This document shows positions 42,785 through 60,888 of a stretch of DNA of 64,000 bases, one piece after another. The stretch covers positions 186,001 through 250,000 of the forward strand of contig NZ_JAIQWW010000008.1 of NCBI RefSeq assembly GCF_020164455.1, read 5' to 3'. Both the position numbers and the translations under genes were made by a program. Under the pieces are notes generated by a model. The model was not told the DNA's origin. It was given only the letters and a program-made list of their open reading frames with translations, and made no database searches. Position 1 is the stretch's first letter. Each line of letters begins with the position of its first letter. Source of the DNA: Phyllobacterium chamaecytisi (GTDB lineage: Bacteria > Pseudomonadota > Alphaproteobacteria > Rhizobiales > Rhizobiaceae).

Positions 42785-42917
42785 ACCTTGCCGATAGTCC
42801 GTAAGCGGCCGTGTCAAATCCTGCTGGCAGACAAACCAACCGAGACAGGAGCGGCTTCTAACCGCAAGATCATCACTGGCAAAACATTCGCCGCCGAGCC
42901 GCATAAATGAAAACAAT

Positions 42918-42929
42918 ATTGTTAACAAT
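42918..42929. promoter_or_regulatory. Shared operator-like site B (upstream of the amino-acid binding protein gene)
   Basis: ATTGTTAACAAT, a perfect 12-bp palindrome, 60 bp from the start of the binding-protein gene. It fits the consensus ATTGNTANCAAT and the GT(N)AC core of GntR operators. Confidence 0.6.
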
Positions 42930-42989
42930 CCGGTTTTGGCCTTTATATTGAAGCTGTGAACTTAACGTAGACGGGGGTTGGGGTAGGGC

Positions 42990-43853: not shown

Positions 43854-43918
43854 GGTGTTGCACCTCGCGTTTTTCCATCAGCCTGGAAGGCTCAAGGTTC
43901 CGGTCGCGGTTTCCGCAC

Positions 43919-44587: not shown

Positions 44588-44651
44588 TGGGCCCGGCTGC
44601 ATTGGAAAGGATGCGCTTGCCTTCGCGGCCGGACAATAGTGATTTCCTTTC

Positions 44652-45374: not shown

Positions 45375-46155
45375 CCAAATCGCGTCTCCCATCATCAGCT
45401 TTCGCGCCGTCACCAAAAAATTCGGCGGCACCACGGTTCTGGCAAATCTCGATCTGGATGTGGTGCAAAACGAAAATCTGACGCTTATCGGTCCGAGCGG
45501 CTCAGGAAAATCAACGATACTGCGCATTCTCATGACGCTGGAGAACGTACAGGCTGGCGGCGTTACCGTCGATGGCGAGGCCCTCTGGGTTGATCAGGGC
45601 CCTGATAAACTCAGCCAGCAGGCTGCGGCGGCGCAAACCCGCGCAATTCGTCGTAAAGTCGGCATGGTTTTCCAGAGTTTCAATCTGTTCCCGCACATGA
45701 GCGCACTGCGAAACATCGCGGAAGCGCCCATTCGTGTGCTGCGGCTCTCCAAGGATGAAGCTTACGATCGCGCCATCGAACTATTGAAGCTTGTCGGTCT
45801 CGCCGACAAACAAAACAATTTTCCCATCCAGTTGTCGGGAGGCCAGCAGCAGCGTGTGGCGATTGCCCGCGCGCTCGCAATGCGTCCCAAAATCCTGCTG
45901 TTTGACGAAGTGACGTCGGCGCTGGACCCGGAAACTGTCGGCGAGGTCCTGTCGGTCATCCGGCAACTGGCCAAAAAACATCAGTTTACCACGTTAATGG
46001 TCACACACCATATGGGGCTGGCCAGGGAAATTTCGGATCGCGTGTGTTTTCTCGAAGGTGGCCGCATCATCGAACAGGGCAGTCCGGTGCAGATATTCGA
46101 ATCCCCTGCGAATAACCGTACGAAAGCTTTCCTCAGGGCGATCCTGGAAGCCTGA
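45367..46155 (+). CDS. Amino-acid ABC transporter ATP-binding protein (EhuA-like)
   Basis: The start is a GTG at 45367 with AGGAGAA eight bases upstream, overlapping the permease stop; the open frame running further upstream is antisense to family expectation. The 262-residue ATPase has Walker A GPSGSGKST, the Q-loop GMVFQSFNLFPHMS, signature LSGGQQQRVAIARAL, Walker B ILLFDEVTSALDPE and the switch histidine VTHHM. An insertion of about 20 residues between strand pairs (ALWVDQGPDKLSQQ) resembles that of EhuA. Confidence 0.9.
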   Translation: MADQIASPIISFRAVTKKFGGTTVLANLDLDVVQNENLTLIGPSGSGKSTILRILMTLENVQAGGVTVDGEALWVDQGPDKLSQQAAAAQTRAIRRKVGMVFQSFNLFPHMSALRNIAEAPIRVLRLSKDEAYDRAIELLKLVGLADKQNNFPIQLSGGQQQRVAIARALAMRPKILLFDEVTSALDPETVGEVLSVIRQLAKKHQFTTLMVTHHMGLAREISDRVCFLEGGRIIEQGSPVQIFESPANNRTKAFLRAILEA

Positions 46156-46565
46156 CGCGCAGATTGCCGCCTTTTTACACAGGATCGGAACGCCGGTGGG
46201 TTCCCATATTGCTCTCCTGTCAGTCAAAGGTTGTCCTCTTCCTTAAGAAGGGTGATCACCGCATTTGAAGTCACAGCGCCGGGCCTCCTTTCGGCGTGCA
46301 CGCCCTTTATGACAGAGCGTTGTCCAGCCCCGTTTTCCTGCTCGTCCCCTGAAAGCTGATGCTCGCATTGTTCGGTGAGGGTCCGCACTCCCGTGCACCT
46401 TGCTGCATTATTTTTTCGCAAATGGCGCCTTGCGCAAAATTATCCTCTTGCTCGCGCGATTGGTGGCAATATTGTATGCCAAATATTCGGTTCGGGGCGA
46501 ATGGTGGCGCATTCACCGATTTGTCACAAACAGTGACAGGTCGGCGGGGTGTCGACCCGTTATTC
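46156..46565. other. Intergenic region upstream of the GntR gene
   Basis: No gene supported; an open frame runs into it from the GntR gene but lacks family residues. A weaker relative of the shared palindrome, ATTGTATGCCAA, is at 46471-46482, possibly an autoregulatory site. Confidence 0.4.
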
Positions 46566-47246
46566 ATGCAATTGAAAGGAAAGAGATTAAAGGTGGTGAG
46601 GGTTTCCAAACGACAGAACGATCCGGTGGCAAAGCTGCGCAAGGCGATCGAGACAGGGCATTTTCTCCCGGGTCAGCGGCTTCCTGAGATAGAATTGGCA
46701 GAGTGGTTGGGCGTCAATCGGGTCAATGTGAAGCTGGCGCTTGGGAAGCTGGATCAAGAAGGCCTCGTTGAAGTCGAGCGCAACAAGGGTGCGCGCGTCC
46801 GTGTGATCAGCGACAAGGAGGCGGTTGAAATCCTTCAAACCTTTGCGTCGCTTGAGACGCTCATTGCACGCAACGCTGCCGCCAAGGCGACCGCAGATGA
46901 TTGCGAGCGCCTTAAGATGATTTTGACAGCAATCAAGCAGGCCCGTGCCGAGGAAGCCTATGTTGAATATTTGCATGAGATAAACAAACTTCACACCGAG
47001 ATTCGGCGCATCGCCGCTCTTTCGACCGCAAACCGCATCGTCGCAACGTTAAATGCGCAGATCGCGCGCTTCCGGTTTCAAACAGTTTTGTTCCCGGGCC
47101 GTATCAAACAATCCATCCAGGAGCTGGAGGAAATTGTCGCTGCGATCTGCGCCGCTGATGGTGTGCGTGCCGGAAAGGCAATGCTCGAGCACCTCAACAA
47201 TGTTGCAAAGGCCCTGGAGCAGAACCTGGCTCGCGTGAACGCCTGA
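46566..47246 (+). CDS. GntR-family regulator (FadR/VanR subgroup), likely controller of the cluster
   Basis: The protein of about 226 residues has the N-terminal winged HTH of GntR proteins: VAKLRKAIETGHFLPGQRLP, EIELAEWLGVNRVNVKLALG, and KLDQEGLVEVERNKGARVRV. An all-helical FCD-type effector domain follows (VEILQTFASLETLIARNAAA through EYLHEINKLHTEIRRIAALS). The ATG at 46566 lacks a ribosome site; a GTG at 46593 with AAGGAAAGAG upstream is a good alternative. It lies between the two importer operons. The palindrome ATTGNTANCAAT found at four units of the cluster contains the GT-AC core of GntR operators, so this protein is the natural candidate to bind it (inference). Confidence 0.9.
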   Translation: MQLKGKRLKVVRVSKRQNDPVAKLRKAIETGHFLPGQRLPEIELAEWLGVNRVNVKLALGKLDQEGLVEVERNKGARVRVISDKEAVEILQTFASLETLIARNAAAKATADDCERLKMILTAIKQARAEEAYVEYLHEINKLHTEIRRIAALSTANRIVATLNAQIARFRFQTVLFPGRIKQSIQELEEIVAAICAADGVRAGKAMLEHLNNVAKALEQNLARVNA

Positions 47247-47403
47247 AGCTTTCTGCTTTCCTGGAGCGCTTGCCTGCTGCGAAGGCGTTGGATGAAGATG
47301 ATCGGTGCGCAAGTCTGTGGACTTCGCCGCATGCTGCAAAAGTTTCGATTCCTGGGCTTGTCGCAGGAGATAATTCTCCAGATCCGCAAATAGTGAAATC
47401 AAT

Positions 47404-47415
47404 ATTGTTAGCAAT
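47404..47415. promoter_or_regulatory. Shared operator-like site C (upstream of the Dpp-type permease operon)
   Basis: ATTGTTAGCAAT, matching the consensus ATTGNTANCAAT, within a larger palindrome (ATATTG...CAATAT), 87 bp from the first permease start. Confidence 0.6.
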
Positions 47416-47501
47416 ATAGCCCTTGGTGTGGAATTGTTGCTTAAGCTTCGGCAACCTGACTGGTTGTCGTTGGTCAGGTGTGATCGCAGGGGTGCAACTC
47501 G

Positions 47502-48623
47502 ATGACGGAAGAGATCCCGGCAGTGTCTGCGTTGCGCCGCGCCGTTTTTCGAGACTCGGGCACTTCGCCGTTCGCTTTGCGCGCTTTAACCGGACCTTTG
47601 CGATACTGCACCGCATTTGCCGGCAGGCTGGCATCGGCGGCAGTGGTTCCGGGCGTCGTTCTGCTGGGCCTCCTTTTTGTCGTCTTCGCCATTGGTCGAT
47701 TGCTACCCACAGACCCTGTTCTGACCGTGATCGGGGATCATGCGCCGCAAGAACTATACGAAAAAGTGCGTCGTGAGATGCATCTGGACAAACCGATAGC
47801 CGAGCAGTTTGTCCTGTTCGGCCTGGACATGGCGCGCGGAGATTTCGGTGTTGCCACGACAACCGGAAATCCCGTCGTAGAGGACATCGGCCGCTTTCTA
47901 CCCGCGACGATCGAGTTGGCGACCGTGGCAATCGCGCTCGGTGTAGGGCTGGGTGTTCCAACTGGATTGCTGGCGGTCCGATTCTCCGGCAGGTGGCCGG
48001 ACAATCTCGTGCGGCTGATCGCAATCCTTGGAAATTCCATACCGATCTTCTGGATGGGATTGGTGGGGCTGCTCTTGTTTTATGCGCATCTCGGCTGGGT
48101 AGGGGGACCGGGAAGGCTTGACATCGTCTATCAGTATACGGTCCCCAGAGTGACCGGCCTTGTTCTGGTAGATACAGCGATCAGTGGCAACGCGGCAGCA
48201 TTCTGCAATGCGGTTTCGCATATAGCCCTTCCTGCCTTGCTGTTGGGATTGGTTGTCTTTAGCGATATAGCCCGCACCACTCGCGGGTTGCTGCTGTGGC
48301 AGTATCGCCAGGACTATATCAACGTCGCACGGCTGAAGGGACTGTCTGAAACGAATGTATTGTGGCGCCATGCCTTGCCTAACGCGGCGGGTCCTCTCCT
48401 TGCCGTTATCGCCTGGAGCTACGCCTATCTGCTCGAAGGAGCGGTGTTGACGGAGACAGTGTTCGCCTGGCCTGGACTCGGACTCTACATCACTCAGTCC
48501 CTGATGGCGTCTGATATGCGTGCTGTGCTGGCGGCAACGTTGATCATCGGTACCATATTCATGGTGCTGAACATGGTGGCGGAAATCGCCCAAACGCGCG
48601 TCGATCCGCGTACGCGGGCCTGA
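47502..48623 (+). CDS. Peptide/nickel-type ABC transporter permease (DppB-like)
   Basis: The 373-residue membrane protein has a longer N-terminus than usual (about 40 extra residues), then the DppB pattern: LLFVVFAIGRLLPTDPVLTV, HLDKPIAEQFVLFGLDMARG, and the EAA loop INVARLKGLSETNVLWRHAL. About six spans. The following permease starts three bases after its stop. Together with 48627-51103 it forms the membrane and energy part for the family-5 binding protein at 38332. Confidence 0.9.
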   Translation: MTEEIPAVSALRRAVFRDSGTSPFALRALTGPLRYCTAFAGRLASAAVVPGVVLLGLLFVVFAIGRLLPTDPVLTVIGDHAPQELYEKVRREMHLDKPIAEQFVLFGLDMARGDFGVATTTGNPVVEDIGRFLPATIELATVAIALGVGLGVPTGLLAVRFSGRWPDNLVRLIAILGNSIPIFWMGLVGLLLFYAHLGWVGGPGRLDIVYQYTVPRVTGLVLVDTAISGNAAAFCNAVSHIALPALLLGLVVFSDIARTTRGLLLWQYRQDYINVARLKGLSETNVLWRHALPNAAGPLLAVIAWSYAYLLEGAVLTETVFAWPGLGLYITQSLMASDMRAVLAATLIIGTIFMVLNMVAEIAQTRVDPRTRA

Positions 48624-48626
48624 CGT

Positions 48627-49517
48627 ATGGGCGCAGTCAAGGAATGGCTTTTCGACAATAGTCCCAATACCCCGCTCCAGGCGCAACTGGGAAGGGTCGC
48701 ACGCGATATCAGGGCGGTGCTGCGCGATCCGATCGCGGTCATCGGTCTGCTCGTTGTCTTGGTGATGGTGGGCGTTGCGGCCCTCGCACCGGTGTTGCCG
48801 GTCCAGGATCCCGGTTTCCAGATCCTCAACGACCGTTTGCAACCGCCGTCTGCGGTCCACTGGTTCGGGACCGACATGCTCGGACGCGATATCTTTTCGC
48901 GCGTTGTGTCAGGCGCGCGGCCGACGCTCGCCATTGTTGCCTCGGTTCTGGCGATCGTGACGCCGCTGGGCGTCCTGATCGGCATTGCTTCCGGGCTGTT
49001 CGCACGGCTCGACACGCCGTTTATGCGGCTCTGTGATGTGTTCATGGCGTTTCCGCGCCTTATTCTGGCGATTGCCGTAGCGGTCACGCTTGGCCCCGGC
49101 ATCGGGGCGGCGATCGTCGCGATCGCAGTGACAGGGTGGCCTTCCTATGCCCGCATCGCCCGGGCTGAGGCCGTGGTAATCCGGCGATCCGAATTCGTGC
49201 AGGCCGCGCAGGTGCTTGGCGCCTCGCGTATCCGCATCATGCTCACACACGTTCTACCGCTTTGCCTGCCTTCGGCAATCGTCCGTGCCACACTCGATGC
49301 CTCGAGCATCATTCTCATAACCTCAGGACTGGGGTTTCTGGGGGCCAGCGTGCCGCCTCCGCAACCAGAATGGGGTGCAATGGTCGCCGAGGGCAGGGAT
49401 GTCATATTCGAGGCGTGGTGGGTCTCGACGATGCCCGGAATTGCAATCCTGGTTTTTGCCCTTGGCTTCAATCTGCTCGGCGATGCGTTGCGCAATCTTT
49501 TCGATCCGCGGGCTTGA
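48627..49517 (+). CDS. Peptide/nickel-type ABC transporter permease (DppC-like)
   Basis: The 296-residue protein shows the DppC N-terminal helix and the signature HWFGTDMLGRDIFSRVVSGA, the EAA loop VQAAQVLGASRIRIMLTHVL, and the end FNLLGDALRNLFDPRA. About six spans. Spacing of three bases to the preceding gene and six to the next indicates one operon. Confidence 0.92.
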   Translation: MGAVKEWLFDNSPNTPLQAQLGRVARDIRAVLRDPIAVIGLLVVLVMVGVAALAPVLPVQDPGFQILNDRLQPPSAVHWFGTDMLGRDIFSRVVSGARPTLAIVASVLAIVTPLGVLIGIASGLFARLDTPFMRLCDVFMAFPRLILAIAVAVTLGPGIGAAIVAIAVTGWPSYARIARAEAVVIRRSEFVQAAQVLGASRIRIMLTHVLPLCLPSAIVRATLDASSIILITSGLGFLGASVPPPQPEWGAMVAEGRDVIFEAWWVSTMPGIAILVFALGFNLLGDALRNLFDPRA

Positions 49518-49523
49518 GAGGAG

Positions 49524-50369
49524 ATGAAATTGCACGGTTCCCTGCTCGACGTTTGTGATCTTCAGGTCGGCTTTCGCACCTCCGACGGCTATGTCGAGGC
49601 CGTGAAGGGCGTCAGCTTCACACTTCGTCGCGAGCGTCTGGCGATTGTGGGCGAGTCGGGATCGGGAAAATCGATGACGGTCCGCTCGCTGATCGGCCTT
49701 GCCGGGCACAATGCAATCGTTTCGGCGCGGCATGCCCGCTTCGGTGAGACGGATCTGCTGTCGCTTTCGGGTCGCGAGCTCAGTGCAGTTCGCGGCCATC
49801 GCATTGCGATGGTGGTTCAGGATCCAAGGCAAGGCCTCAATCCGGTGCAGACCGCTGGGCGCCAGGTCGGCGAGATGCTCCGCATGCATCGACGGACCCG
49901 GCGGCACGACATGCGCAATGCGGTAGAGACGCTTTTCGACGAAGTGCACATCCGCGATCCGCGGCGGGTGTTCGATCTTTATCCCCACGAACTCTCGGGC
50001 GGGATGGCGCAACGCGTGATGGTTGCGATGATGCTCGCCGGTGGGCCAGACATCCTGATAGCCGATGAGGCCACGTCCGCCCTCGATGCGGTCGTTCAAA
50101 GGCGCATCCTCGAACTGATCGACGAGCAGGTCCGGTTGCGGGGTATGGGTCTTATCCTCATCAGCCACGACCTGGAACTTGTCTCCGGCTTCGCCGACCG
50201 GATCATGGTCATGTATGCAGGCCGTACCGTGGAAACGTTCGCCGCAGGGCAGGGATACGGGAGCGCGCGACATCCCTACACGCACGGACTGATCGCGTGC
50301 GTGCCATCCCTGGATCACCCCGGCCAGCGTCTGCCGATCCTCAACCGTGATCCGGAGTGGGCCCGATGA
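49524..50369 (+). CDS. Peptide-type ABC transporter ATP-binding protein (DppD-like)
   Basis: The 281-residue ATPase has Walker A VGESGSGKS, Q-loop MVVQDPRQGLNP, signature LSGGMAQRVMVAMML, Walker B ILIADEATSALDAV and the switch segment ISHDLELVSGFADR. It ends with the oligopeptide-transporter tail (HPYTHGLIACVPSL). GAGGAG touches the ATG, so a TTG two codons later may be the true start. The stop overlaps the next start (ATGA). Confidence 0.92.
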   Translation: MKLHGSLLDVCDLQVGFRTSDGYVEAVKGVSFTLRRERLAIVGESGSGKSMTVRSLIGLAGHNAIVSARHARFGETDLLSLSGRELSAVRGHRIAMVVQDPRQGLNPVQTAGRQVGEMLRMHRRTRRHDMRNAVETLFDEVHIRDPRRVFDLYPHELSGGMAQRVMVAMMLAGGPDILIADEATSALDAVVQRRILELIDEQVRLRGMGLILISHDLELVSGFADRIMVMYAGRTVETFAAGQGYGSARHPYTHGLIACVPSLDHPGQRLPILNRDPEWAR

Positions 50370-51103
50370 CGCCGCAGGCTCTTTCCCTTGACGGGCTGTC
50401 AATCCGTTTGGGGGCGTCGCTGGTCGTCGACACGGTCTCGCTGACGCTCGAGCATGGGGAAAGTCTCGGCATCGTCGGGGAATCCGGCTGTGGCAAGAGC
50501 ACATTGCTGAAATGCATTGCGGGCATCTACGATACCTGGTTGGGAAACATCGAAGTTTTCGGTAGCAAACTCAATGCCCGGCGAACCTATGCCGATCGCC
50601 GTCTCCTGCAGATCGTTTTTCAGGATCCAGCGGCAGCGCTGAACCCGGCGCACACCGTGGACACAATCCTGCGCGAACCGTTGATCATTCATCGCTTCGA
50701 TAGGCAGGACAAGCGCATCGCCGACGTGCTCGAAGCGGTCAGTCTGCCGCATTCCATCCGGTTCAGGTTTCCCGGTCAGATTTCGGGAGGGCAGCGGCAG
50801 CGTCTTTGCATTGCGCGCGCTCTGCTGGTCGAGCCAAGGATAATACTGCTGGATGAGACGACATCATCGCTCGATGTGTCGGTGCAAGCGGAGATCCTCA
50901 ACCTGCTCGCCGAATTGCGCGACGAGCGGCAGATTTCCTACCTCCTCATAAGTCACGATCTCGCGGTTGTCGCACAGTTGTGCGAGCGGATCATGGTGAT
51001 GGCCGCCGGAAAGATCGTCGGACGCACCACGCGCGATGAATTGCGCGGCAAAGCAAAAGAGGAAAGCTACCGCAAGCTGCTGTTGCCCTTTTCGCGAGAT
51101 TAG
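50366..51103 (+). CDS. Peptide-type ABC transporter ATP-binding protein (DppF-like)
   Basis: The start at 50366 overlaps the previous stop as ATGA. The 245-residue ATPase carries Walker A VGESGCGKST, Q-loop IVFQDPAAALNP, signature ISGGQRQRLCIARAL, Walker B IILLDETTSSLDVS and ISHDLAVVAQLCER. It lacks the C-terminal oligopeptide motif present in its partner. It completes the five-part importer. Confidence 0.92.
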   Translation: MTPQALSLDGLSIRLGASLVVDTVSLTLEHGESLGIVGESGCGKSTLLKCIAGIYDTWLGNIEVFGSKLNARRTYADRRLLQIVFQDPAAALNPAHTVDTILREPLIIHRFDRQDKRIADVLEAVSLPHSIRFRFPGQISGGQRQRLCIARALLVEPRIILLDETTSSLDVSVQAEILNLLAELRDERQISYLLISHDLAVVAQLCERIMVMAAGKIVGRTTRDELRGKAKEESYRKLLLPFSRD

Positions 51104-51331: not shown

Positions 51332-54300
51332 ATGACAAAATCCACACTCATACAGCAACTGAAAGAGCAGGTTCTGCGACATCCGGATCGAGTTGCCGTC
51401 TCCTCGGATTCTGGTTCGCTGACTTTTGCCGAGCTTTGGCGTCGCAGCGGACAGGTCGCGGCCCATTTGCGCAATCATGGCGTCAAAGCCGACGCCGTTG
51501 TTGGCGTCTTTGTCGATTCCTCGCTCGAACTCGAGATTGCGATCTGGGCTGTTCTTCGCTCGGGTGGAGCGTACCTGCCGTTGTCTCCGGAGTATCCGAG
51601 CGTCCGGCTGCGATATTCTCTTGAGGATTCCGGTGCCAGGATCATCCTCACGACGGCACTCCTGGAGAGCGATGCACGGACAATCCAGTCCGCCCAAGGT
51701 GCAATTGTCCGTATTGAGGATTGTCTGGAAGGTGGGAGCGACGATGCCGAACAGGACGGTTACGCCGGATCGAACAACCTTGCCTACGTCATCTATACAT
51801 CGGGAAGCACGGGCAAGCCCAAAGGCGTGGCGATCGAGCATGGGAGCATTGCGCACCAACTCGATTGGTTGCGTGACGCCATGGGCATCAACGAAGACGT
51901 CAGGATTTTGCAAAAGACCCCCTTCAGCTTCGATGCGGCCCAATGGGAAATCCTTAGTATCGCTCTTGGCGCAACCGTCGTCATGGCCGGCATCGGCACA
52001 TACCGCGACCCATCCAGACTCGTCGAAACCGCCAAACGCCATGCGGTCACAACGCTGCAGTGTGTGCCGACACTTTGGATGGCTCTTTTGGAAACGGACG
52101 GATTTCAGGATTTAAGCCTTGCCCAGATATTTAGCGGCGGGGAGGCCCTGACGTCGCGTCTTGCGCGCAATCTCATCCGTGTTCACCCCTCAGCAAGCCT
52201 GGTTAACTTGTACGGGCCGACAGAGACCACCATTAATGTCTCTGCCTACACTGTCAGAGCCGACGAACTTGATGATACCGACCGCGTCCTGCCGATCGGA
52301 TTCCCGGTCTACCATACAGACCTCATTGTTTGCGATGGTGCGAGGGAACTTGCGGATGGCGAAGTTGGCGAACTTTGCATTACCGGACCCCAGCTGGCCC
52401 GTGGCTACATCGGCAATGCGGAGCTGACCGCGGCTAAATTCACGATGTTGGTCGACGCGCAGGGGCGCAAGCGCCGCGTATATCGAACCGGGGATCTTGC
52501 GATCAAGGGCGCCGCCGATGGGGTCGTCGGTTTCCTTGGCCGCGTCGACAATCAAGTCAAGATCAGCGGCCATCGCATCGAACTGGACGAGATCCGGCTG
52601 GCGATCGAGAACCATCGCTGGATCCGAAGGGCGACGGTTGTTCCCTGGCAAACCCGTCGCGGCACCCCGCAATTGGCCGCTTTCGTCGAGTTGGATGAAA
52701 CCGAAGCGGCCCTGATGGACCAGAACATCTCCGGCAGCCATCACAAATCCAAGGCTAGCCGCCGCCAGGTCAACGCGCAGCTTTCGAACGGCGCGTTCCG
52801 TTTGGCGGACGAGCTTGACGGAAATATCGTAAGCCTGCCATCCCGCGAGGCCCCAGAGGATATCGCGACACGGGCATTTGCGCGCAAAACCTATCGCAAT
52901 TTCAGGACGCGGGTCCGCGGCGATCAGATCGTAGAGGCTATACGCAGTGCGCAACGTCCTCCGCTGCCAGGCAGCACTCATGACGCGAAACTTGATAAAA
53001 CTCTGATAGGGCGAATCTTGCGCTGGTTTGGCCCGTTCTCCAGCGATACACGCCTTTTACCCAAATACGCCTACGCTTCTCCAGGTGCATTGAACGCATC
53101 GCAAATCTTTGTGGAAGCCTATGGTGTGGAGGGCCTCTCGCCGGGCCTGTATTACTTCCACCCGGCAGACCATACATTGACCCACGTTTCGCCATTGACG
53201 CCATCGGATGTCGGTATTCGCCTCCACGTTTATGGCAAGCGCAGCCGTATCCGGGAAGTCTATTCGACAAATGTGGACGAGGTTCTTCACCTCGAAGCGG
53301 GGCACATGCTGGGGCTTCTTGAGGAAGTCGCAGTCGAGCACGGTCTCTACCCGGCCAGGGCGGCGCCGCCGCATTCCGCCCCGGCGGAGCTTTTCAGTGC
53401 CGAAGACTACCTCCACACTCTCAGTGTCAAATTGGCTCGGCCGGTTGTGCCAGAGCCGCTCGTCAAGTCCCTCGCCCTTGTTCAGATCCACGAAGAGACC
53501 CCGGATGGCGTTAAACCCGGTACGTATGGACTGGATAGCGACAAGCTGACGCCCATCGGTGATCCCATCATTCGCCGCAAGGACGTCATTGCCATCAATC
53601 AGGCGGTCTTCGACCGGTCGACCTTTGGCATAGCTTTGATCGTTGCGAAGCAATCCGGATGGGAAGGTTTTGTCGAACTCGGCCGCTTTCTCCACCGCCT
53701 GCAAACCAGCGACCCCGAGATCGGGTTGATGTCGTCGGGCTACAGTTCGCTTTCGGGCTACGAGATGGCGACGTCGATCCGGCTGGATGCACTCATCGGA
53801 AAGGACTTTTTCTCCGGGAACGGCACCATTTCCTATTTTGCCCTGGGAGGCGGGATTTCTTCCGCCCAGCGATCAAGCCGCGGCATGGAAGAAGACCTCG
53901 TGCACATGCGCGGGCCGACGGAAATTCTGAAGGACGATCTGCGCGAACTGTTACCCGAATATATGGTTCCTTCGCGCGTGAAAGTGATCGACACGACACC
54001 GACCATGCCGAGCGGCAAGATCGATCTGCAGTCACTGCGCAATCTGGTCGAAGCGGAAGAAAGCGCGCGCCCGATCGTCCCGCCCGGCACGAGAACCGAG
54101 CTTGAGGTCGCGGGCATCTGGAAGGACATTCTGGGTCTGGAGTACGAGGAACTGTCGATCCGGGATTCGTTTTTCGACGTGGGCGGCAATTCCCTTTCGG
54201 CCATGGCGCTCATCAATCGGCTGAACGCCAGATTTGGTACAAGGCTACCGATACAGGCCCTCTTCGCTGTGCCGACTGTCGAAGCCCTTGCAAGCGAAAT

Positions 54301-55381
54301 CGGCTCCGGTGCGGTTGCCCTCGCCAGCCGCCTGGTCAGCCTCAATGAGGCACCAGTGGGAAGCCCGATCTATTGCTGGCCGGGACTGGGAGGCTATCCC
54401 ATGATCCTTCGATCATTGGCGCAGGCGGCAGATCAAGGTTCATATCGGTTCCTTGGCGTTCAGGCGCACGGCATCAATCCGGATGAAGTCCCGTTTACGA
54501 CCATCCAGGAAATGGCGGCGGCGGATGTGGAGCTCATTCAGCGTCACGATCCCACAGGCCCGATTACGTGCATCGGCTATTCGTTCGGTGCCCGGGTGGC
54601 CTTCGAAACTGCTTATCAGTTGGAACAGCTGGGTCGAACGGTGGAGAGGATCGTTCTCATTGCCCCTGGATCTCCGTTGCAAAAGACAACCGCGGCGGCA
54701 GCCGAGGCTGATCGCTTCGAGGACGAACGGTTCCTGCGTATTCTTTTGTCGGTGTTTGCCGGGACGCTGAACTCACCCCTGGAGGCGCAATTGCTTGCCA
54801 GCGTCGGTGACGAGCGCGCCTTCATCGACTTCATCACGAGTAAGTTCGAGGATCTTTCGACCGAGCTGGTGGCGCGAATCGTCACCGTCGTCAAAGCCAC
54901 GTTCTCCTTCGAATACACCTTCGACGAGCTCAGTCAGCGTGCGGTTCGGGCGCCGATCACCCTCATCAAGGCGCAAGGGGACGACTATTCGTTCCTGGAG
55001 ACAGCCAGCAGCAGCCAAGGCTTTAGCCAGGTCATCGAACTTTCCCATGACCATTATTCAATCCTGCGTGGCGATGGCCAGATGGCGCTCGCCCAGGTTC
55101 TCAGCGACGTGCTTTCATCCGATCGGGAGATTTCCATGCCTCATATCAGTGTCAAGCATTTCCCCGCCCACATCGACGAGGGTCGCCGAAAGATTTTGGC
55201 CGACGAGCTCGCATCCGCCGTCATCAAAGCCTTCGGCTGCGCGCCGAATGTGGTCTCGGTGGCGCTCGAACCGGTGGAGGAGGCCAACTGGGATGCGCTC
55301 GTCTACCAGCCCGAGATCATCGGACGACAGAAATTTCTGGTCAGAGAGCCAAGCTACGGCCTACGCCAAAACGCAAAATAG
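51332..55381 (+). CDS. Indigoidine-synthetase-like NRPS (A-Ox-T-TE) with in-frame C-terminal tautomerase
   Basis: The 1349-residue synthetase contains an adenylation domain with A3 IYTSGSTGKPKGV (154-166) and A5 NLYGPTETT. Its A8 region is DNQVKISGHRIELDEI (406-421). A large insertion (about 430-860) replaces the normal A8-A10 link; its stretch SPGALNASQIFVEAYGVEGL and neighbours fit McbC/nitroreductase-type FMN oxidase domains. A10 resumes with MPSGKIDLQSL (892-902). The carrier site is FFDVGGNSLSA (Ser954) and the thioesterase has GYSFG (Ser1084) and DHYSIL (His1241). This order, and the end of the thioesterase near residue 1268, equal those of indigoidine synthetase, which makes a blue dimer from glutamine. 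The specificity residues read by eye are D-A-W-Q-I-S-L-I-N-K, close to a code reported for glutamine (DAWQFGLIDK). Residues 1269-1349 are a PptA-like tautomerase. The product is not proven. Confidence 0.88.
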   Translation: MTKSTLIQQLKEQVLRHPDRVAVSSDSGSLTFAELWRRSGQVAAHLRNHGVKADAVVGVFVDSSLELEIAIWAVLRSGGAYLPLSPEYPSVRLRYSLEDSGARIILTTALLESDARTIQSAQGAIVRIEDCLEGGSDDAEQDGYAGSNNLAYVIYTSGSTGKPKGVAIEHGSIAHQLDWLRDAMGINEDVRILQKTPFSFDAAQWEILSIALGATVVMAGIGTYRDPSRLVETAKRHAVTTLQCVPTLWMALLETDGFQDLSLAQIFSGGEALTSRLARNLIRVHPSASLVNLYGPTETTINVSAYTVRADELDDTDRVLPIGFPVYHTDLIVCDGARELADGEVGELCITGPQLARGYIGNAELTAAKFTMLVDAQGRKRRVYRTGDLAIKGAADGVVGFLGRVDNQVKISGHRIELDEIRLAIENHRWIRRATVVPWQTRRGTPQLAAFVELDETEAALMDQNISGSHHKSKASRRQVNAQLSNGAFRLADELDGNIVSLPSREAPEDIATRAFARKTYRNFRTRVRGDQIVEAIRSAQRPPLPGSTHDAKLDKTLIGRILRWFGPFSSDTRLLPKYAYASPGALNASQIFVEAYGVEGLSPGLYYFHPADHTLTHVSPLTPSDVGIRLHVYGKRSRIREVYSTNVDEVLHLEAGHMLGLLEEVAVEHGLYPARAAPPHSAPAELFSAEDYLHTLSVKLARPVVPEPLVKSLALVQIHEETPDGVKPGTYGLDSDKLTPIGDPIIRRKDVIAINQAVFDRSTFGIALIVAKQSGWEGFVELGRFLHRLQTSDPEIGLMSSGYSSLSGYEMATSIRLDALIGKDFFSGNGTISYFALGGGISSAQRSSRGMEEDLVHMRGPTEILKDDLRELLPEYMVPSRVKVIDTTPTMPSGKIDLQSLRNLVEAEESARPIVPPGTRTELEVAGIWKDILGLEYEELSIRDSFFDVGGNSLSAMALINRLNARFGTRLPIQALFAVPTVEALASEIGSGAVALASRLVSLNEAPVGSPIYCWPGLGGYPMILRSLAQAADQGSYRFLGVQAHGINPDEVPFTTIQEMAAADVELIQRHDPTGPITCIGYSFGARVAFETAYQLEQLGRTVERIVLIAPGSPLQKTTAAAAEADRFEDERFLRILLSVFAGTLNSPLEAQLLASVGDERAFIDFITSKFEDLSTELVARIVTVVKATFSFEYTFDELSQRAVRAPITLIKAQGDDYSFLETASSSQGFSQVIELSHDHYSILRGDGQMALAQVLSDVLSSDREISMPHISVKHFPAHIDEGRRKILADELASAVIKAFGCAPNVVSVALEPVEEANWDALVYQPEIIGRQKFLVREPSYGLRQNAK
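55136..55381 (+). CDS. PptA-like 4-oxalocrotonate tautomerase, in frame with the NRPS; possible independent start
   Basis: The last 81 codons of the synthetase gene encode MPHISVKHFPAHIDEGRRKI and ANWDALVYQPEIIGRQKFL, closely following the E. coli PptA pattern. These tautomerases use the N-terminal proline, freed by loss of Met1, as general base. In the fusion the proline is internal and would be inactive. However, the ATG at 55136 has GGGAGA five bases upstream, so ribosomes may start here and make a free tautomerase with Pro1. I list it separately because both forms may exist. Confidence 0.6.
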   Translation: MPHISVKHFPAHIDEGRRKILADELASAVIKAFGCAPNVVSVALEPVEEANWDALVYQPEIIGRQKFLVREPSYGLRQNAK

Positions 55382-55392: not shown

Positions 55393-56310
55393 ATGGAAAA
55401 GGCAACTGCGGCGCGGTTTTTCGGGCAGGCGGCGATATGGGGTGCGAGTTTCACCTTCATCAAGTTCGCGCTCGAGGACTTCAGCCCCAACCAGCTCGTG
55501 CTTTTTCGGCTGATCCTCGGAGCGGCCACGCTCGCTTTGATTATTGTCTTTACGGGAAGGTCCTTCAAGCTGACCGGCAAGGCTTGGTTCCACGTTGCGG
55601 TCTCTTCGATTTTCGCAAACGTCGTGCCCTATCTGCTGCTCAGCTATGGCGAACTGCATGCCAGTGCCGGTTTGGCGGGCGTGCTCATCGGCGGCACGCC
55701 ATTGGTGACGCTCTTCATCTCGACTCTGGCGTTGCGCGACGAGCCGGCAACCTCGCGCAAGGTGACCGGCTTCATTCTGGGTTTTCTCGGCGTGGCGCTC
55801 GTGGTCAGTCCATGGAAGGTGGAGGGAAGTTCGCTGCTCGGCGCCCTGGCGTGTTTTGGGGCAGCGACGAGCTATGCGGTGGGCTACGCCTATGTCGGCC
55901 GTTTCCTGGCGCCTTTGAAGGTGGACCCAATCACGCTCGGCGCCAATCAACTTGTTGCGGCGGCCATCCTTCTGGCGCTGGCCGTGCCATTCTTCACCTG
56001 GCCCCCGATTGAATCGGTCTCCGCTGTACCGTTGTTGTCTCTGCTTTATCTTGGCGTGCTTGCCAGCGGTTTTGCCAACATCCTTTATTTCAGACTGATC
56101 CAGGATGTCGGGGCGTCAACCGCATCGGCCGTCGACTACGTCGTTCCGGTGTTTGCTGTTCTGTTCGGTGCGGTTTTGCTGCTCGAACCGTTATCGTGGA
56201 ACGTGATCGCGGGCGGTGCAGTCATCTTGATCGGAATGGCAATCGCCGAGGGGCGCATCTCCTCATCCGCTTTCTCGCAAGCTTCGTCTGGAAAGGTGAA
56301 TAACTCATGA
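55393..56310 (+). CDS. EamA/DMT-family transporter
   Basis: The 305-residue protein has about ten membrane helices arranged as two EamA repeats (first from AAIWGASFTFIKFALEDFSP, second from ALACFGAATSYAVGYAYVGR). GGGAGA precedes the ATG 12 bases after the NRPS stop, and its stop overlaps the next start (ATGA). Members export metabolites such as amino-acid derivatives; here export of the synthetase product is plausible but unproven. Confidence 0.9.
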   Translation: MEKATAARFFGQAAIWGASFTFIKFALEDFSPNQLVLFRLILGAATLALIIVFTGRSFKLTGKAWFHVAVSSIFANVVPYLLLSYGELHASAGLAGVLIGGTPLVTLFISTLALRDEPATSRKVTGFILGFLGVALVVSPWKVEGSSLLGALACFGAATSYAVGYAYVGRFLAPLKVDPITLGANQLVAAAILLALAVPFFTWPPIESVSAVPLLSLLYLGVLASGFANILYFRLIQDVGASTASAVDYVVPVFAVLFGAVLLLEPLSWNVIAGGAVILIGMAIAEGRISSSAFSQASSGKVNNS

Positions 56311-57341
56311 GTGGCGCAGAACCTTTTCCATCAAGCAGTGCCTCGCGTGCGATGCTGCCGCATGTCGATAGGGCATCGACGCAAACGCCCCGGCCTGGCC
56401 TTCGGCAAGACGTGACGCCCTCCACAACCGCCGCAGAGGCCCGCTTCTTCGGCTCCGGTATCGGCGCAACACCTGTCCTTGAACTGCCGGCGGACCTCGT
56501 CGGTGGACGAGGGGTCTATGCCAAGCTGGAGAAATACAACCCCTTTTCCAGCATCAAGGATCGCATCGCCTGGTATATGCTTGCAGGGGCCGAAACCCGT
56601 GGGCAACTGGTCCCGGGCGGCACGGTCATCGAGGCCACTTCGGGTAACACGGGAATTGCGCTCGCGGGTTTTGCAAGGGCGCGCAACTATCGTTGTATCA
56701 TCGTTCTGCCGGATAGTGCGTCGAAGGAACGAATAGAGTTGCTGAAGTTTTTTGGCGCGGAGCTGGAGCTGACACCAAGCGAGGCGGGATACACCGCCGC
56801 GATCGAGAAAGCCGAACAACTGCGCGACGTGACGCCGGGGGCATGGTTTGCCTGCCAGCACGAAAATGCGGACAATGTTCTGGCTCACTACGAAACGACC
56901 GGGCCGGAACTGTGGCGCGATCTTGCCGGAAAGATCGATACCCTTGTTTGCGGTGTTGGTACCGGCGGAACGATCAGCGGCATCGGAAAATTTCTCAAGG
57001 AACAAAACCCGGATATCAAGATCGTTGCCGTAGAGCCGGAGCGCTCGGCGGTTCTGAGCGGCAATCCCGGCGGGATCCACCGCATACCGGGACTGAACGG
57101 CGGCTTTGTCGCGCGGACGACCGACCGTACCTTGATCGACGAGATCATCACGGTGGCCGATGAGGATGCCTGGGCAATGGCAAAGAAGCTTGCGTCCGCA
57201 GGAATTGTCGTCGGGATTTCATCTGGCGCTGTGGCCGAGGTCTGCAGAGCAATTCGGCAAAGGTCGACCTCGGACGAGGGACGCATCGTTACCATCTTTC
57301 CGGACTCCGGAGAGCGGTACGTGTCCCTTCTCAGCGCATAG
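56307..57341 (+). CDS. Cysteine-synthase-like fold-II PLP enzyme
   Basis: The 344-residue protein has an unusual N-terminal extension of about 45 residues (rich in Ser/Pro), then the cysteine-synthase core: GATPVLELPADLVGGRGVYA, the PLP lysine in NPFSSIKDRIAWYM, the substrate loop EATSGNTGIALAG, the phosphate site GVGTGGTISGIGKFL, and VGISSGAVAEV. It is in the CysK/CysM/SbnA group, which replaces the leaving group of O-acetyl- or O-phospho-serine with a nucleophile. With a serine acetyltransferase nearby and an NRPS upstream, it may make cysteine or a beta-substituted alanine for the synthetase; the sequence cannot decide. It is translationally coupled to the exporter gene. Confidence 0.9.
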   Translation: MSGAEPFPSSSASRAMLPHVDRASTQTPRPGLRQDVTPSTTAAEARFFGSGIGATPVLELPADLVGGRGVYAKLEKYNPFSSIKDRIAWYMLAGAETRGQLVPGGTVIEATSGNTGIALAGFARARNYRCIIVLPDSASKERIELLKFFGAELELTPSEAGYTAAIEKAEQLRDVTPGAWFACQHENADNVLAHYETTGPELWRDLAGKIDTLVCGVGTGGTISGIGKFLKEQNPDIKIVAVEPERSAVLSGNPGGIHRIPGLNGGFVARTTDRTLIDEIITVADEDAWAMAKKLASAGIVVGISSGAVAEVCRAIRQRSTSDEGRIVTIFPDSGERYVSLLSA

Positions 57342-57406: not shown

Positions 57407-57898
57407 ATGACGCAATTTTCGAAGACCCTATTTCCCGGTGAAGGCGAATCCGTTCAGATCGGAACCACAACGCACACAACGTTCAAGGCGGTCGGCAAGG
57501 AAACGAGCGATCGTATCGGCTTGTTCGAGCACCGGATGAAACCCGGTGCGCCCGGCGCATCGCCGCATGTTCACCGTCATCAGCTCGAGGCTTTCTACGT
57601 CCTCGAAGGAACGGTAGAGATCTATGTCGATGGCGAACATATCGCCGCCCCGGCCGGCACCTACATACAGGTTCCCGAGGACGTGCCCCACGGCTTTCAC
57701 AATCCGTACGACAAGGAAGCGGCGATGCTGATCTTTTTCAGCCCCGGAAAGAATCGCGAGGAATATTTCCGCAGGCTGGCGGCGCTCTATGCCAATGGCC
57801 GCCGGGCATCCGAGCAGGAGCTCATCGACCTTATGGCCGACTTCGATCAGTTTGAGGTCGAGTATACCGGTGACGTCCCGGGATGGGGCCGCCATTAA
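57407..57898 (+). CDS. Cupin-domain protein
   Basis: The 163-residue protein has a single cupin barrel. Motif 1 is SPHVHRHQLEAFYVLEGTVE (His, His, Glu metal ligands) and motif 2 is GTYIQVPEDVPHGFHNPYDK (His). A helical C-terminus of about 45 residues follows. AAGGAAGGAAG precedes the ATG. Similar small cupins are dioxygenases or isomerases of small molecules, so a tailoring step on the NRPS product is possible. Confidence 0.85.
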   Translation: MTQFSKTLFPGEGESVQIGTTTHTTFKAVGKETSDRIGLFEHRMKPGAPGASPHVHRHQLEAFYVLEGTVEIYVDGEHIAAPAGTYIQVPEDVPHGFHNPYDKEAAMLIFFSPGKNREEYFRRLAALYANGRRASEQELIDLMADFDQFEVEYTGDVPGWGRH

Positions 57899-57982
57899 CA
57901 GCCTTCAAACTGGACTATCATCCTGCAGCGGGCGGCAGTTCCCCGGCCGATCCGCCTCACCATGATGTTACAAGGACAGCAA

Positions 57983-59020
57983 ATGTTACCAAATCCGTTC
58001 GATGACAAGCCGTTTCAAATCAGGACCAAAGCCGCAGTCACCTTTGCGTTCCTGATTTCCGCGAATATCGCCGCGTGGATTTGGGCATGGGTCGCGTTTG
58101 CAGATCGGCCCGCCCTCATGGGCACTGCGTTTCTTGCCTATATGTTGGGGCTGCGTCACGCCTTCGATCCTGATCACATCGCTGCGATCGACAATGTGGT
58201 GAGAAAGCTGATGCAGGAGGGCAAAGCGCCTTATTCCGTCGGTTTCTTCTTTTCGCTCGGGCATTCAAGCATCGTCGTCCTGGCTTCCATTGCCATTGCG
58301 GCAACAGCAGCCGCAATGCAACTCAAAGAGATCGGCGATATCGGGGGCATTATCGGCACAATCGTTTCGGCGGCGTTCCTTCTGATCATCGGTATTGCCA
58401 ATCTCGTTGTGCTAAAGGGTATCTGGTCCGTGTTCAAGCGCGTCCGCAGAGGCGAGAAGATCGTCGAAGAAGACCTCGATGCCCTTCTTGCAGGGCGTGG
58501 TTTGATCGCCAGGGTCTTTCGACCAGTCTTCCGGGTCGTTTCCCGTTCCTGGCACATGTATCCTATCGGCTTCCTGTTTGGCCTTGGCTTCGACACGGCA
58601 ACGGAAATCGGGTTGCTTGGAATCTCGGCGATGCAGGCCGCCCAAGGCATGTCATTCTGGACGATCCTTGTTTTTTCTGCGCTATTCACGGCCGGCATGT
58701 CGTTGATGGACACGACGGACAGCGTCCTAATGACCGGGGCCTATGGCTGGGCATTTGTCAATCCGGTCCGCAAACTTTGGTACAATTTGACGATCACCGC
58801 AGCTTCCGTCGTCGTGGCAGTGTTCATCGGCGGGCTCACAGCCGCCGGGCTCATCATCGAAAAGCTTGGTCTCGATGGCGCCTTCTGGACGTATATCGGT
58901 GGAATTGACGACAACCTGGCCGGCGTCGGTTACGCCGTTGTTGGCATTTTCATCTTGAGTTGGATCGTGTCGACGGTCGTATATCGCGCGAAGGGATATG
59001 ACACTCTTCGCGTGGGATGA
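57983..59020 (+). CDS. Nickel/cobalt transporter, NiCoT (HoxN/NixA) family
   Basis: The 345-residue membrane protein has about eight spans and the NiCoT signatures: RHAFDPDHIAAIDNVVRK in the second helix, GFFFSLGHSSIVV in the third, and LFGLGFDTATEIGLLGISAM. The ATG at 57983 after AAGGA is preferred; an ATG at 57962 would add seven residues. Such permeases take up Ni2+ or Co2+ with high affinity. In this cluster it could supply metal to the cupin or a chelate system; no nickel enzyme or cobalamin gene is in the window, and the 84-base upstream gap is too short for a cobalamin riboswitch. Confidence 0.92.
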   Translation: MLPNPFDDKPFQIRTKAAVTFAFLISANIAAWIWAWVAFADRPALMGTAFLAYMLGLRHAFDPDHIAAIDNVVRKLMQEGKAPYSVGFFFSLGHSSIVVLASIAIAATAAAMQLKEIGDIGGIIGTIVSAAFLLIIGIANLVVLKGIWSVFKRVRRGEKIVEEDLDALLAGRGLIARVFRPVFRVVSRSWHMYPIGFLFGLGFDTATEIGLLGISAMQAAQGMSFWTILVFSALFTAGMSLMDTTDSVLMTGAYGWAFVNPVRKLWYNLTITAASVVVAVFIGGLTAAGLIIEKLGLDGAFWTYIGGIDDNLAGVGYAVVGIFILSWIVSTVVYRAKGYDTLRVG

Positions 59021-59146: not shown

Positions 59147-60001
59147 ATGCTCAACCATCCTATCGCACCTTGGCTGGAAAGCGTTGTGGCCATAGGCTTG
59201 GAACTGAGGGTGAAGTGGTTGCGGCCCCGATTTTACGCAATCCTCGCCCTTGATGTACCACGTCAAACGCCAATGTGCAGCGGTTTGCCGATTACGGCGG
59301 AGGAGTGGGGCAGGGCCCAGCGCTACAAGCATGTGATGGACCGCAATCGCTCTCTGGTAGCGTGGAGTGCGCTGCGGGTTCTCCTCGGTGTCCTTTTTGA
59401 AACGCAGCCTGAGCTAGTCGAAATTGCCCGGACGGTTCACGGCAAACCGTTGGTTCCGGACGGGCCAAGCATCAGCATTTCTCATTCCGGCGAGCTGGCG
59501 GTGATCGCGCTGTCGAGCGCATTGAGCATCGGGGTGGATATTGAGGCAATCAAGGACAGCGCTGCGTTCGCTCCCGCCGTGCTCGATACGCTGACGAAAT
59601 CTGAATTGGCCTATATTTCCGATCGTACGGGGGACGCCGCTTTTCTGCTTCGGGCATGGACCAGGAAAGAGGCAACGGCGAAGGTCCTCGGTGCCGGGCT
59701 TTCTCTTGATTTTCGCTCTCTATCGGTTCTTGTTGGCGATGGCTGCCGATTCAAGGGGCTTTTTCACCAACCAGATGGGCAGGTCTTTGTTAACGGCATG
59801 GATCTGGACCTTCGCGATGGCTATATAGCGGCGCTGGCATCCACCCAAACCATTCCTGAAGTGACAAGCTACTGTGTCGCTGCCAATGGCGCATCTGCTG
59901 TCGGCTTCGCCGGTTGGCCTGGCAATTGCAACCGAGCGCACCGAATGCCGTCAAACCCTATAAAGATGAGATTTCGTCGACGGACTTTCTGGCGTTCGTA
60001 G
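59147..60001 (+). CDS. Sfp-type 4'-phosphopantetheinyl transferase
   Basis: The 284-residue protein has the three Sfp motifs: HGKPLVPDGPSISISHSGEL (P1-P2 region), the magnesium-binding SIGVDIEAIKD, and FLLRAWTRKEATAKVLGAGL. It attaches the phosphopantetheine arm of CoA to carrier domains, as required for Ser954 of the nearby synthetase. Presence in the cluster supports an active NRPS. The first 30 residues and the last 45 (ending MRFRRRTFWRS) do not look like the family and may be poorly placed start and a drifted tail. A distant GGAGG is 11 bases before the ATG. Confidence 0.88.
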   Translation: MLNHPIAPWLESVVAIGLELRVKWLRPRFYAILALDVPRQTPMCSGLPITAEEWGRAQRYKHVMDRNRSLVAWSALRVLLGVLFETQPELVEIARTVHGKPLVPDGPSISISHSGELAVIALSSALSIGVDIEAIKDSAAFAPAVLDTLTKSELAYISDRTGDAAFLLRAWTRKEATAKVLGAGLSLDFRSLSVLVGDGCRFKGLFHQPDGQVFVNGMDLDLRDGYIAALASTQTIPEVTSYCVAANGASAVGFAGWPGNCNRAHRMPSNPIKMRFRRRTFWRS

Positions 60002-60021
60002 AAAAGCAGGAGCGCAGCTTA

Positions 60022-60888
60022 ATGGAGGTACACGAGTTGGATCAGATGCAGCCCAAGTCGGCGTTAGACGAGGCTCGTGCTGGCCTCGACGTTTCTCATG
60101 ACGAGCTAGTCTGGAGCATATTGTGCCGGGAAGCGCACGCCGCCGTTGACAATGACAAGCGTCTTGGTCGCACGATGAATTCGAATATTCTCGGCCATCA
60201 GAGTTTTTCCCGTTCACTTGCTTATCGGATAGCGGTGAAACTCGCAAACGATGATGTTGACGCGGAAGTTTTGTTTCCTTTGACCTGCGGGGTCTTTCAA
60301 GAGGATCCACATATCGTGTCGTCCGCAAGGGTCGATCTGGAGGCGATCCGCGATCGCGATCCGGCCACAACAGACGTTCTCACACCATTCCTATACTTTA
60401 AAGGATTTCTGGCTTTACAGGGGCACAGGGTAGCGCATTGGCTGTGGAGCCATAGCGACGTTTACTTGGCTCGCCATTTTCAAAGCCGTATATCGGAAGT
60501 TTTGGCGATCGACATTCATCCGGCTGCCCGGATGGGCAAGGGAATTATGCTCGATCATGGGAATGGTCTTGTGATCGGCGAAACTGCTGTTGTGGAAGAT
60601 GATGTTTCAATTCTTCAAGACGTGACATTGGGTGGGACGGGGAAGGAAACTGGAGATCGCCACCCGAAAATTCGCCGTGGCGCCCTCATTGGCGCCGGAG
60701 CGAAAATACTCGGAAATATCGAAGTCGGAGTGGGAGCCAAAGTAGGTGCGGGGAGCGTTGTCGTCTCGCCGGTGGCAGCGCACACTTCAGTCGCTGGCGT
60801 GCCGGCGCGGTTGGTAGGAAGGCCAAAATCCGATTTACCGGGCATCACTATGGAGCAGTCAATTACGGGACCCGAATACGTAATCTGA
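60022..60888 (+). CDS. cysE: Serine O-acetyltransferase
   Basis: The 288-residue protein starts at ATG 60022 behind CAGGAGCG; a longer frame from 59914 overlaps the preceding gene. The N-terminal helical domain (ELVWSILCREAHAAVDNDKR) and the left-handed beta-helix (FQSRISEVLAIDIHPAARMG, GIMLDHGNGLVIGETAVVED, GGTGKETGDRHPKIRRGALI) are typical CysE. The catalytic His-Asp pair is in DIHPAA / LDHGNG. It makes O-acetyl-L-serine, the substrate of cysteine-synthase-like enzymes such as the one at 56307. The dedicated copy beside the NRPS genes suggests a need for O-acetylserine in the pathway. Confidence 0.93.
   Translation: MEVHELDQMQPKSALDEARAGLDVSHDELVWSILCREAHAAVDNDKRLGRTMNSNILGHQSFSRSLAYRIAVKLANDDVDAEVLFPLTCGVFQEDPHIVSSARVDLEAIRDRDPATTDVLTPFLYFKGFLALQGHRVAHWLWSHSDVYLARHFQSRISEVLAIDIHPAARMGKGIMLDHGNGLVIGETAVVEDDVSILQDVTLGGTGKETGDRHPKIRRGALIGAGAKILGNIEVGVGAKVGAGSVVVSPVAAHTSVAGVPARLVGRPKSDLPGITMEQSITGPEYVI

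Follow-up and report, generated by a model that had tools for sequence, protein, structure and literature searches.

A stretch of 64,000 nucleotides from Phyllobacterium chamaecytisi (NZ_JAIQWW010000008.1, positions 186,001 to 250,000; hereafter the window) encodes on its forward strand, at 51332..55381, a nonribosomal peptide synthetase (NRPS) with adenylation (A), oxidase (Ox), thiolation (T), thioesterase (TE) and tautomerase (Tau) domains in a single uninterrupted frame of 1349 aa. The enzyme is almost certainly of the indigoidine-synthetase A-Ox-T-TE type, since every sequence test made (domains, specificity code, Tyr base, T and TE residues) agreed. We give an even chance to the whole reading, NRPS part included, in which a glutamine NRPS of the MinA (minimycin) kind has its ring coupled, via a CysE-type serine O-acetyltransferase and a CysK-like enzyme encoded downstream, to form a heteroaryl-alanine; diversion of the NRPS monomer by this pair is rated slightly below even. 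More tentatively, we suggest a third indigoidine/minimycin branch, shared by Streptomyces and by rhizobial Ti and agrocin-strain plasmids, in which alanine from O-acetylserine would replace ribose, yielding a class of heteroaryl-alanine not yet reported, and the tautomerase would be made twice from one gene, once within the NRPS and once as a separate Pro-1 enzyme. Enzymes of this NRPS family supply one reactive monomer, whose fate, pigment or antibiotic nucleoside, is decided by partner enzymes. If our reading is true, serine-derived chemistry in place of sugar coupling would be a further outlet of the monomer, and new amino-acid-like products are predicted in Streptomyces clavuligerus and in rhizobia, including the biocontrol strain K84.

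All domains of the NRPS were intact, as the original prediction had claimed. The adenylation core (residues 11-359; 51362..52408) matched PF00501 AMP-binding at 9.5e-83, the thiolation or carrier domain (residues 926-988, with Ser954; 54107..54295) PF00550 PP-binding at 5.1e-17, and the thioesterase domain (54365..55105, with Ser1084 and His1241) PF00975 over residues 1012-1128 at 3.1e-20. The adenylation motifs A3, A5 and A7 were located at residues 155, 292 and 384, and the T core, GYSFG and DHY at 947-955, 1082 and 1240. Because A8 lies at 403-421 and A10 at 893-898, the oxidase-sized insertion noticed earlier is indeed placed between them (about residues 455-870; 52694..53941). Carrier Ser954, the two TE residues and Lys896 of A10 were each conserved in 19 of 19 aligned rows. 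The part shared with BpsA/IndC of Streptomyces and IgiD of Leisingera showed 41-45% identity, and the full-length values were 44.3% (S. lavendulae), 41.6% (Leisingera), 45.4% (S. clavuligerus) and 45.5% (S. mirabilis). Aligned to the GrsA core and read in GrsA numbering, the adenylation code was DAWQFGLIN plus Lys896. The same code was present in 14 of the 16 relatives compared, while S. clavuligerus and S. lavendulae deviated at one position each. In the code first proposed, DAWQISLINK, two of the ten positions had been read out of register. By code and overall identity the NRPS grouped with the glutamine-type enzymes of the indigoidine family, and its adenylation domain is predicted to be specific for L-glutamine.

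The Ox insertion did not match any Pfam family up to E = 1. No oxidase family was found in Pfam for the corresponding segments of S. lavendulae and Leisingera either (the latter gave only a sub-threshold TPR match), so this silence characterises the family as a whole. A profile derived from 15 relatives matched BmdC, the oxidase of a bacillamide NRPS, at 2.4e-11, and also the nitroreductase 3eo7 (1e-6) and ThcOx/CyaGox (7e-4). The lack of a nitroreductase match in Pfam was therefore not taken to refute the oxidase, and the question raised with the original prediction, whether residues 430-860 resemble oxidases dependent on flavin mononucleotide (FMN), was answered in its favour. The 13 best PDB matches of an AlphaFold model of the segment were nitroreductase/oxidase chains with BmdC first, consistent with an FMN-oxidase fold, but this search was given little weight because the model was poor (three alignment rows, mean predicted local distance difference test score 49.9, predicted template modelling score 0.55). 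In indigoidine synthetase, Ox is described as sitting between A8 and A9, and a pseudodimer was proposed for IndC (PMC8795117); by analogy, the Ox of the window is probably a pseudodimer too. Tyr665 is described as the base in BpsA (PMC13405713, PMC8795117). Tyr644 of the window, whose counterpart in the S. lavendulae relative (1283 aa) is residue 665, is our candidate for the general base of Ox. It was present in 18 of 19 rows, as was Arg518, and Arg522 in all 19. The sole row lacking Tyr644, S. microflavus (L037), also lacks Arg518. This diverged member (NZ_CP054927, 4152-13457; 37.6% identity) has two aroA genes and one asnB gene as neighbours and, judged by this context, is a family member serving a different pathway.

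The tautomerase is of the 4-oxalocrotonate tautomerase (4-OT) type and is fused behind the TE in one continuous frame, as in the MinA type, from Met1269 with Pro1270 as Pro-1 (55136..55381). PF01361, with a cut-off of 22 bits, matched residues 1270-1320 of the whole protein below that cut-off (0.0007, 19.9 bits) and the C-terminal piece alone above it (24.2 bits). Earlier it had been considered an unusual extra domain, which was not borne out, and we rejected it as a unique feature. S. chromofuscus IndC carries a fused tautomerase (PMC3992020), a tautomerase motif appended to indigoidine synthetase is mentioned in PMC5818174, fused and separate tautomerases of Streptomyces and myxobacteria are discussed in PMC12766979, fused ones have been described for some BpsA-type enzymes, and the minimycin enzyme MinA is A-Ox-T-TE-Tau (PMC8724604). 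Leisingera has a separate tautomerase gene, igiF (PMC5014874, Table 2). On the tree, the fused and separate states required three label changes, with the A. vitis and Corynebacterium rows on long branches; the fused state may still have arisen once. Arginines 11 and 39 of 4-OT were not kept in the tautomerase alignment. All 13 aligned tautomerases, fused and separate, have Pro directly after the start residue; in the fused enzymes this Pro stands within the chain and would be N-terminal only if translation began internally. Enzymes of this group are described as acting through an N-terminal proline (PMC5818174).

Within the fused gene we found a candidate internal translation start at 55125..55138, in which GGGAG is followed by 6 bases, ATG and then CCT (Pro), with an anti-Shine-Dalgarno duplex energy of -7.4 kcal/mol, against -4.1 to -9.0 kcal/mol for separate tautomerase genes. 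In three in-frame unfused relatives (L011, L015, L016), the tautomerase start comes one codon after the NRPS stop. In the fused rhizobial genes the position of this stop is ATT or ATC, and the purine-rich element and start codon are kept: CGGGAG-ATTTCC-ATG-CCT in the window, CAGGAG-ATTCTC-ATG-CCT in K84 and CGGGAG-ATCTCC-ATG-CCC in K1/93. The corresponding sites in Streptomyces were GGGGGAG-ACACC-ATG-CCG (S. clavuligerus) and CAGGAGG-TCGGA-GTG-CCC (S. mirabilis). Ranked by duplex energy among all in-frame ATG and GTG codons of each gene, the internal start came 2nd of 38 in the window, 2nd of 39 in P. sophorae (L009), 2nd of 35 in Rhizobium ICMP 5592 (L010), 3rd of 37 in K84, 2nd of 66 in S. 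clavuligerus and 2nd of 54 in S. mirabilis. Since Shine-Dalgarno, start codon and Pro-1 were retained in three fused lineages, the tautomerase may also be translated separately. However, the Shine-Dalgarno element could be a relic of the fusion, and in K1/93 the site ranked only 5th of 34. If used, such a start would be a simple answer to how a fused Pro-1 enzyme works, and it would extend to MinA- and IndC-type fusions. We found no description of a retained internal start in fused tautomerases in the open-licence PubMed Central literature, to which our other literature searches also refer.

The NRPS is followed after 11 bases by an EamA/DMT exporter gene (55393..56310; PF00892, 3.7e-40), which the gene of the CysK-like enzyme (56307..57341; PF00291, 2.1e-72) overlaps by 4 bases. 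The CysK-like protein resembles cysteine synthase (O-acetylserine sulfhydrylase) in being a fold type II pyridoxal phosphate enzyme with a TSGNTG loop, and its nearest solved structures are of that kind. It differs in missing both NCBIfam cut-offs (cysKM, 331.2 of 344.15 bits; cysK, 329.6 of 350.95) and in carrying the stretches QHEN and HRIPGLNGGF. Both were present in 8 of 8 subgroup rows (the window, four rhizobial relatives, S. clavuligerus, Streptomyces NBC_01450 and S. goshikiensis) and in none of the three other CysK homologues of this genome, the closest of which has QFDNPAN and HKIQGIGAGF at these stretches. An altered substrate is what we infer from this, and it stays at that level because the nearest solved structures are plain cysteine synthases (270 bits). 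An assignment as O-ureidoserine synthase was unsupported (196 bits), and the 60 best matches of the profile were mainly cysteine synthases. In S. goshikiensis (L031, NZ_CP108579, 9337-12249), genes for a CysE, a subgroup CysK, two ATP-grasp proteins and a NikS protein lie side by side, and this set probably represents another pathway to a non-protein amino acid.

Further downstream lie a cupin (57407..57898; PF07883, 6.5e-19), a NiCoT nickel/cobalt transporter (57962..59020; PF03824, 3.1e-103, and over the cut-off of TIGR00802), an Sfp-type 4'-phosphopantetheinyl transferase (PPTase; 59147..60001; PF01648, 7.4e-14, with the same annotation in K84) and the CysE (59914..60888; PF06426, 1.9e-30), whose tail GPEYVI ends in a C-terminal Ile and whose true start probably lies later than the listed TTG. 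The cupin is 91-99% identical across five rhizobial loci and has a conserved-looking His/Glu metal site, read by eye (HVHRHQLEAFYVLEG ... HGFHN). A cupin relative in Gloeothece was set aside, with no NRPS or CysK annotated near it. The PPTase is more diverged between islands (46-50% to K84, ICMP 5592 and the Ti copies) than the NRPS (76-79%) or the cupin (91-92%). The CysK-like enzyme, CysE, cupin and NiCoT had rightly been listed as unusual partners, but the EamA exporter and the PPTase had been missed.

The absence of indA/indB-type helpers from the neighbourhood was confirmed: tblastn at 1e-3 detected neither IndA/MinB nor PF14027 genes in the island. At this threshold MinB and the MinC haloacid dehalogenase (HAD) domain of S. 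mirabilis, the PF14027 protein of S. clavuligerus and IndA of A. vitis had no match in the window or in L009, L010, L026 and L027. An Indigoidine_A gene of the Phyllobacterium genome lies on a different contig (C10). PF14027 was not detected in this genome at 1e-3, a result of little weight, as the positive control was also silent.

Among the NRPS relatives we distinguished three kinds of neighbourhood. The ind type (L018, L016, L024, L038) has a pseudouridine-5'-phosphate glycosidase (IndA/MinB), EamA, uracil phosphoribosyltransferase and a separate tautomerase, and the igi type (L019, L022, partly L015 and L023) a tautomerase and a major facilitator superfamily transporter, to which several loci add arylmalonate decarboxylase, an NAD(P)-dependent oxidoreductase and TetR. 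BpsA/IndC and IgiD are like the window enzyme in domains, code, Tyr base and T/TE residues, whereas the BpsA-type and IgiD-type relatives compared have a separate tautomerase (L018, L019, L022, L015, L016, L024) and IndA or Igi partners that differ from those of the third, window type. On Rhizobium jaguaris pRCCGE525a (L022, 1-3735), a YcaO/SagB-type gene set for a thiazole/oxazole-modified microcin adjoins the igi-type cluster.

The minimycin system of S. hygroscopicus JCM 4712 comprises MinA, MinB, MinC (HAD plus DUF4243) and MinD (PMC8724604). In the minimycin-type cluster of S. mirabilis (L021), we read a fused NRPS, an Indigoidine_A protein (MinB), a HAD plus PF14027 protein (MinC) and a uracil phosphoribosyltransferase. 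DUF4243 of MinC is presumably PF14027, and the domain order fits. These systems share with the window the A-Ox-T-TE-Tau chain and the glutamine code; however, the C-glycosynthase MinB, MinC and the uracil phosphoribosyltransferase are missing from the island, which has the CysK-like enzyme, CysE, cupin, NiCoT and PPTase. The closest arrangement was observed on pCLA1 of S. clavuligerus (L028), where a fused NRPS-tautomerase, EamA (53% to that of the window, in the matching place), a CysE-like protein, CysK (61%, 1.7 kb after the fused NRPS) and a PF14027 protein are encoded in a row. It differs in having PF14027, and the cupin, NiCoT and PPTase of the window had no match in the 30 kb read. Because the PF14027 protein shares 55% identity over 407 residues with the C-terminal half of S. 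mirabilis MinC, this set reads as minimycin-like, with CysE and CysK in place of MinB; the C-glycosynthase looks to have been exchanged for CysE/CysK. No report of such an exchange was found in the literature searched, nor any product assigned to the pCLA1 cluster, nor indigoidine linked with cysteine synthase or, by title, with O-acetylserine chemistry. In Streptomyces NBC_01450 a subgroup CysK lies about 0.3 kb from an indigoidine-type NRPS, divergent from it and adjacent to a gene for an ATP-grasp ligase. By our arithmetic from the record lengths, random placement of the single CysK match of each record would bring it this close to the NRPS in roughly 0.1-0.3% of cases. At this locus (L029, 10061-16480) the ATP-grasp is of the L-amino-acid-ligase type, and further NRPS-like matches lie at 23.7-29.3 kb.

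A pathway can be proposed from these observations. As in the rest of the family, glutamine would be adenylated and loaded on the carrier domain, primed here presumably by the PPTase of the cluster; the FMN-dependent Ox would oxidise it at C2-C3 with Tyr644 as base; and the TE would cyclise and release an aminopyridinedione, which dimerises to indigoidine if left alone. For minimycin, the TE product is described as having two fates, spontaneous coupling to indigoidine or conversion by Tau to the tautomer that MinB accepts (PMC8724604). Similarly, the tautomerase of the window would convert the aminopyridinedione to the tautomer taken by a coupling enzyme, which in the minimycin pathway is the C-glycosynthase MinB. 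Here and in S. clavuligerus, CysE would make O-acetylserine, and the CysK-like enzyme would join the aminoacrylate to the ring at N, at C or by way of an added heteroatom, so that a heteroaryl-alanine results. This might be oxidised further, by the cupin here and by the PF14027 enzyme in S. clavuligerus, before export through EamA. Tautomerase made alone from the internal start would have the free Pro-1 nitrogen that it needs.

Several observations weigh against this proposal. CysE and CysK may simply make cysteine, and the structures closest to the CysK-like enzyme are, as said, ordinary cysteine synthases. A search of the flanks (about 1.5-9 kb) of 11 other indigoidine-type NRPS loci (L011, L015, L016, L018, L019, L021, L022, L024, L037, L038, L039; L023 left out) yielded no CysK like that of the window. 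In NBC_01450, which has the CysK, the genes diverge and no tautomerase was found by motif. The S. clavuligerus CysE is only about 40% similar over a partial length and may have been recruited separately. An EamA relative in S. anthocyanicus (49%) has no NRPS near it, which weakens EamA as a cluster marker. PF14027 is absent from the rhizobial island, where, at a guess, the cupin replaces it. Moreover, the monooxygenases upstream have sulfur-compound enzymes among their nearest solved relatives.

The original prediction expected indigoidine or a related dimer. An ordinary indigoidine synthetase would make a pigment or radical scavenger with a dedicated PPTase and EamA, the CysK, CysE, cupin and NiCoT genes being functionally separate neighbours. 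IndC/BpsA activity alone is reported to suffice for pigment (PMC3992020), the code and catalytic residues are as in the S. lavendulae and Leisingera relatives, and EamA-family exporters also occur in ind clusters. However, identity between the EamA of the window and that of the A. vitis ind cluster is only 26%, the gene of the CysK-like enzyme lies in one operon with EamA and overlaps it, and S. clavuligerus also combines CysE and CysK, in its case next to a minimycin-type PF14027 gene. In addition, the tautomerase of the minimycin system is described as diverting the intermediate (PMC8724604). Neighbours and tautomerase point to monomer diversion, as in minimycin, rather than to the dimer, and we consider plain indigoidine unlikely.

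The other two alternatives involve the upstream half of the island (38311..51103, forward strand, delimited by Pfam and by synteny with K84 and pTiK1_93). It encodes an SBP_bac_5 protein, two luciferase-like monooxygenases (LLM1 and LLM2, 40066-42784), an amino-acid-type ATP-binding cassette (ABC) importer, a GntR regulator and an Opp/Nik-type ABC importer. The nearest solved relative of LLM1 is YtnJ, with further matches to nitrilotriacetate and dibenzothiophene monooxygenases, and that of LLM2 is an alkane monooxygenase, then dimethyl-sulfide monooxygenase. These matches suggest that organosulfur or similar compounds are taken up and oxidised, after which CysE/CysK could assimilate the sulfide and the NRPS product could be a thiol adduct or a sulfur-linked redox compound. 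The two importers and the whole block being kept together in rhizobia agree with this, and LLM2 is 80-90% identical in six island-bearing plasmid records and below 60% in the other 345 matching records. On the other hand, S. clavuligerus keeps NRPS-EamA-CysE-CysK, with no upstream window gene matched in its 30-kb stretch at 1e-6, and the CysK-like motifs are unlike those of the other homologues in this genome; we therefore regard the sulfur explanation as improbable. Still less credit, very little in fact, is given to a metallophore-like product, which would chelate nickel or cobalt, leave the cell through EamA and be retrieved by the Opp/Nik-type importer, with NiCoT and cupin belonging to the same metal theme. 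NiCoT is over its family cut-off and the Opp-type permeases and ATPases score high against nickel and staphylopine importer models, but all of the latter scores are under the cut-offs and permeases of the Opp, Dpp and Nik types are difficult to distinguish from one another. The metal genes are missing from the S. clavuligerus stretch.

DNA similarity to longer stretches of K84 and K1/93 spans 38141-60889 of the window, an island of about 22 kb, outside which the annotated neighbours in these two strains differ. In K84, transposase genes lie near one end. By annotation, the order NRPS-EamA-CysK-cupin-NiCoT-PPTase-CysE is the same on K84 pAtK84c, Rhizobium K1/93 pTiK1_93, Rhizobium tumorigenes 932 pTi932 and Rhizobium B21/90 pTiB21_90, so the island is conserved and plasmid-borne in K84 and on three Ti plasmids. 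All of these genes are also present in P. sophorae and Rhizobium ICMP 5592 by blastp. The pAtK84c relative, 79% identical, is annotated as indigoidine synthase. We found no report of this synteny, of indigoidine in K84 or of nonribosomal synthesis in Rhizobium tumorigenes in the open-licence literature. Tblastn matched 199 plasmid records, 36 of them over at least 80% of the NRPS. Counting its own genome, the NRPS was matched in 2 of 20 sampled genomes from the genus, in 2 of 199 from the family (at 1e-100), in 1 of 397 from the order and in 1 of 398 from the phylum, and in 0 of 146 genomes of another genus of the family. These samples overlap, and scoring was limited to the best two to four candidates per genome in all searches but that of the genus. 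The window contig (C78) had no RepC match, whereas four were found in this genome, on contigs C2, C89, C12 and C23. Contig C12 also carries a second NRPS-like frame (112262-114295), which shares 31-34% identity with the A, T and TE regions. Elsewhere in the window, a reverse-strand gene (25797-27815) encodes trypsin-like and DNA/RNA non-specific endonuclease domains in one protein and is adjoined by a gene for a DUF2278 plus lamin-tail protein (28808-29857, reverse strand).

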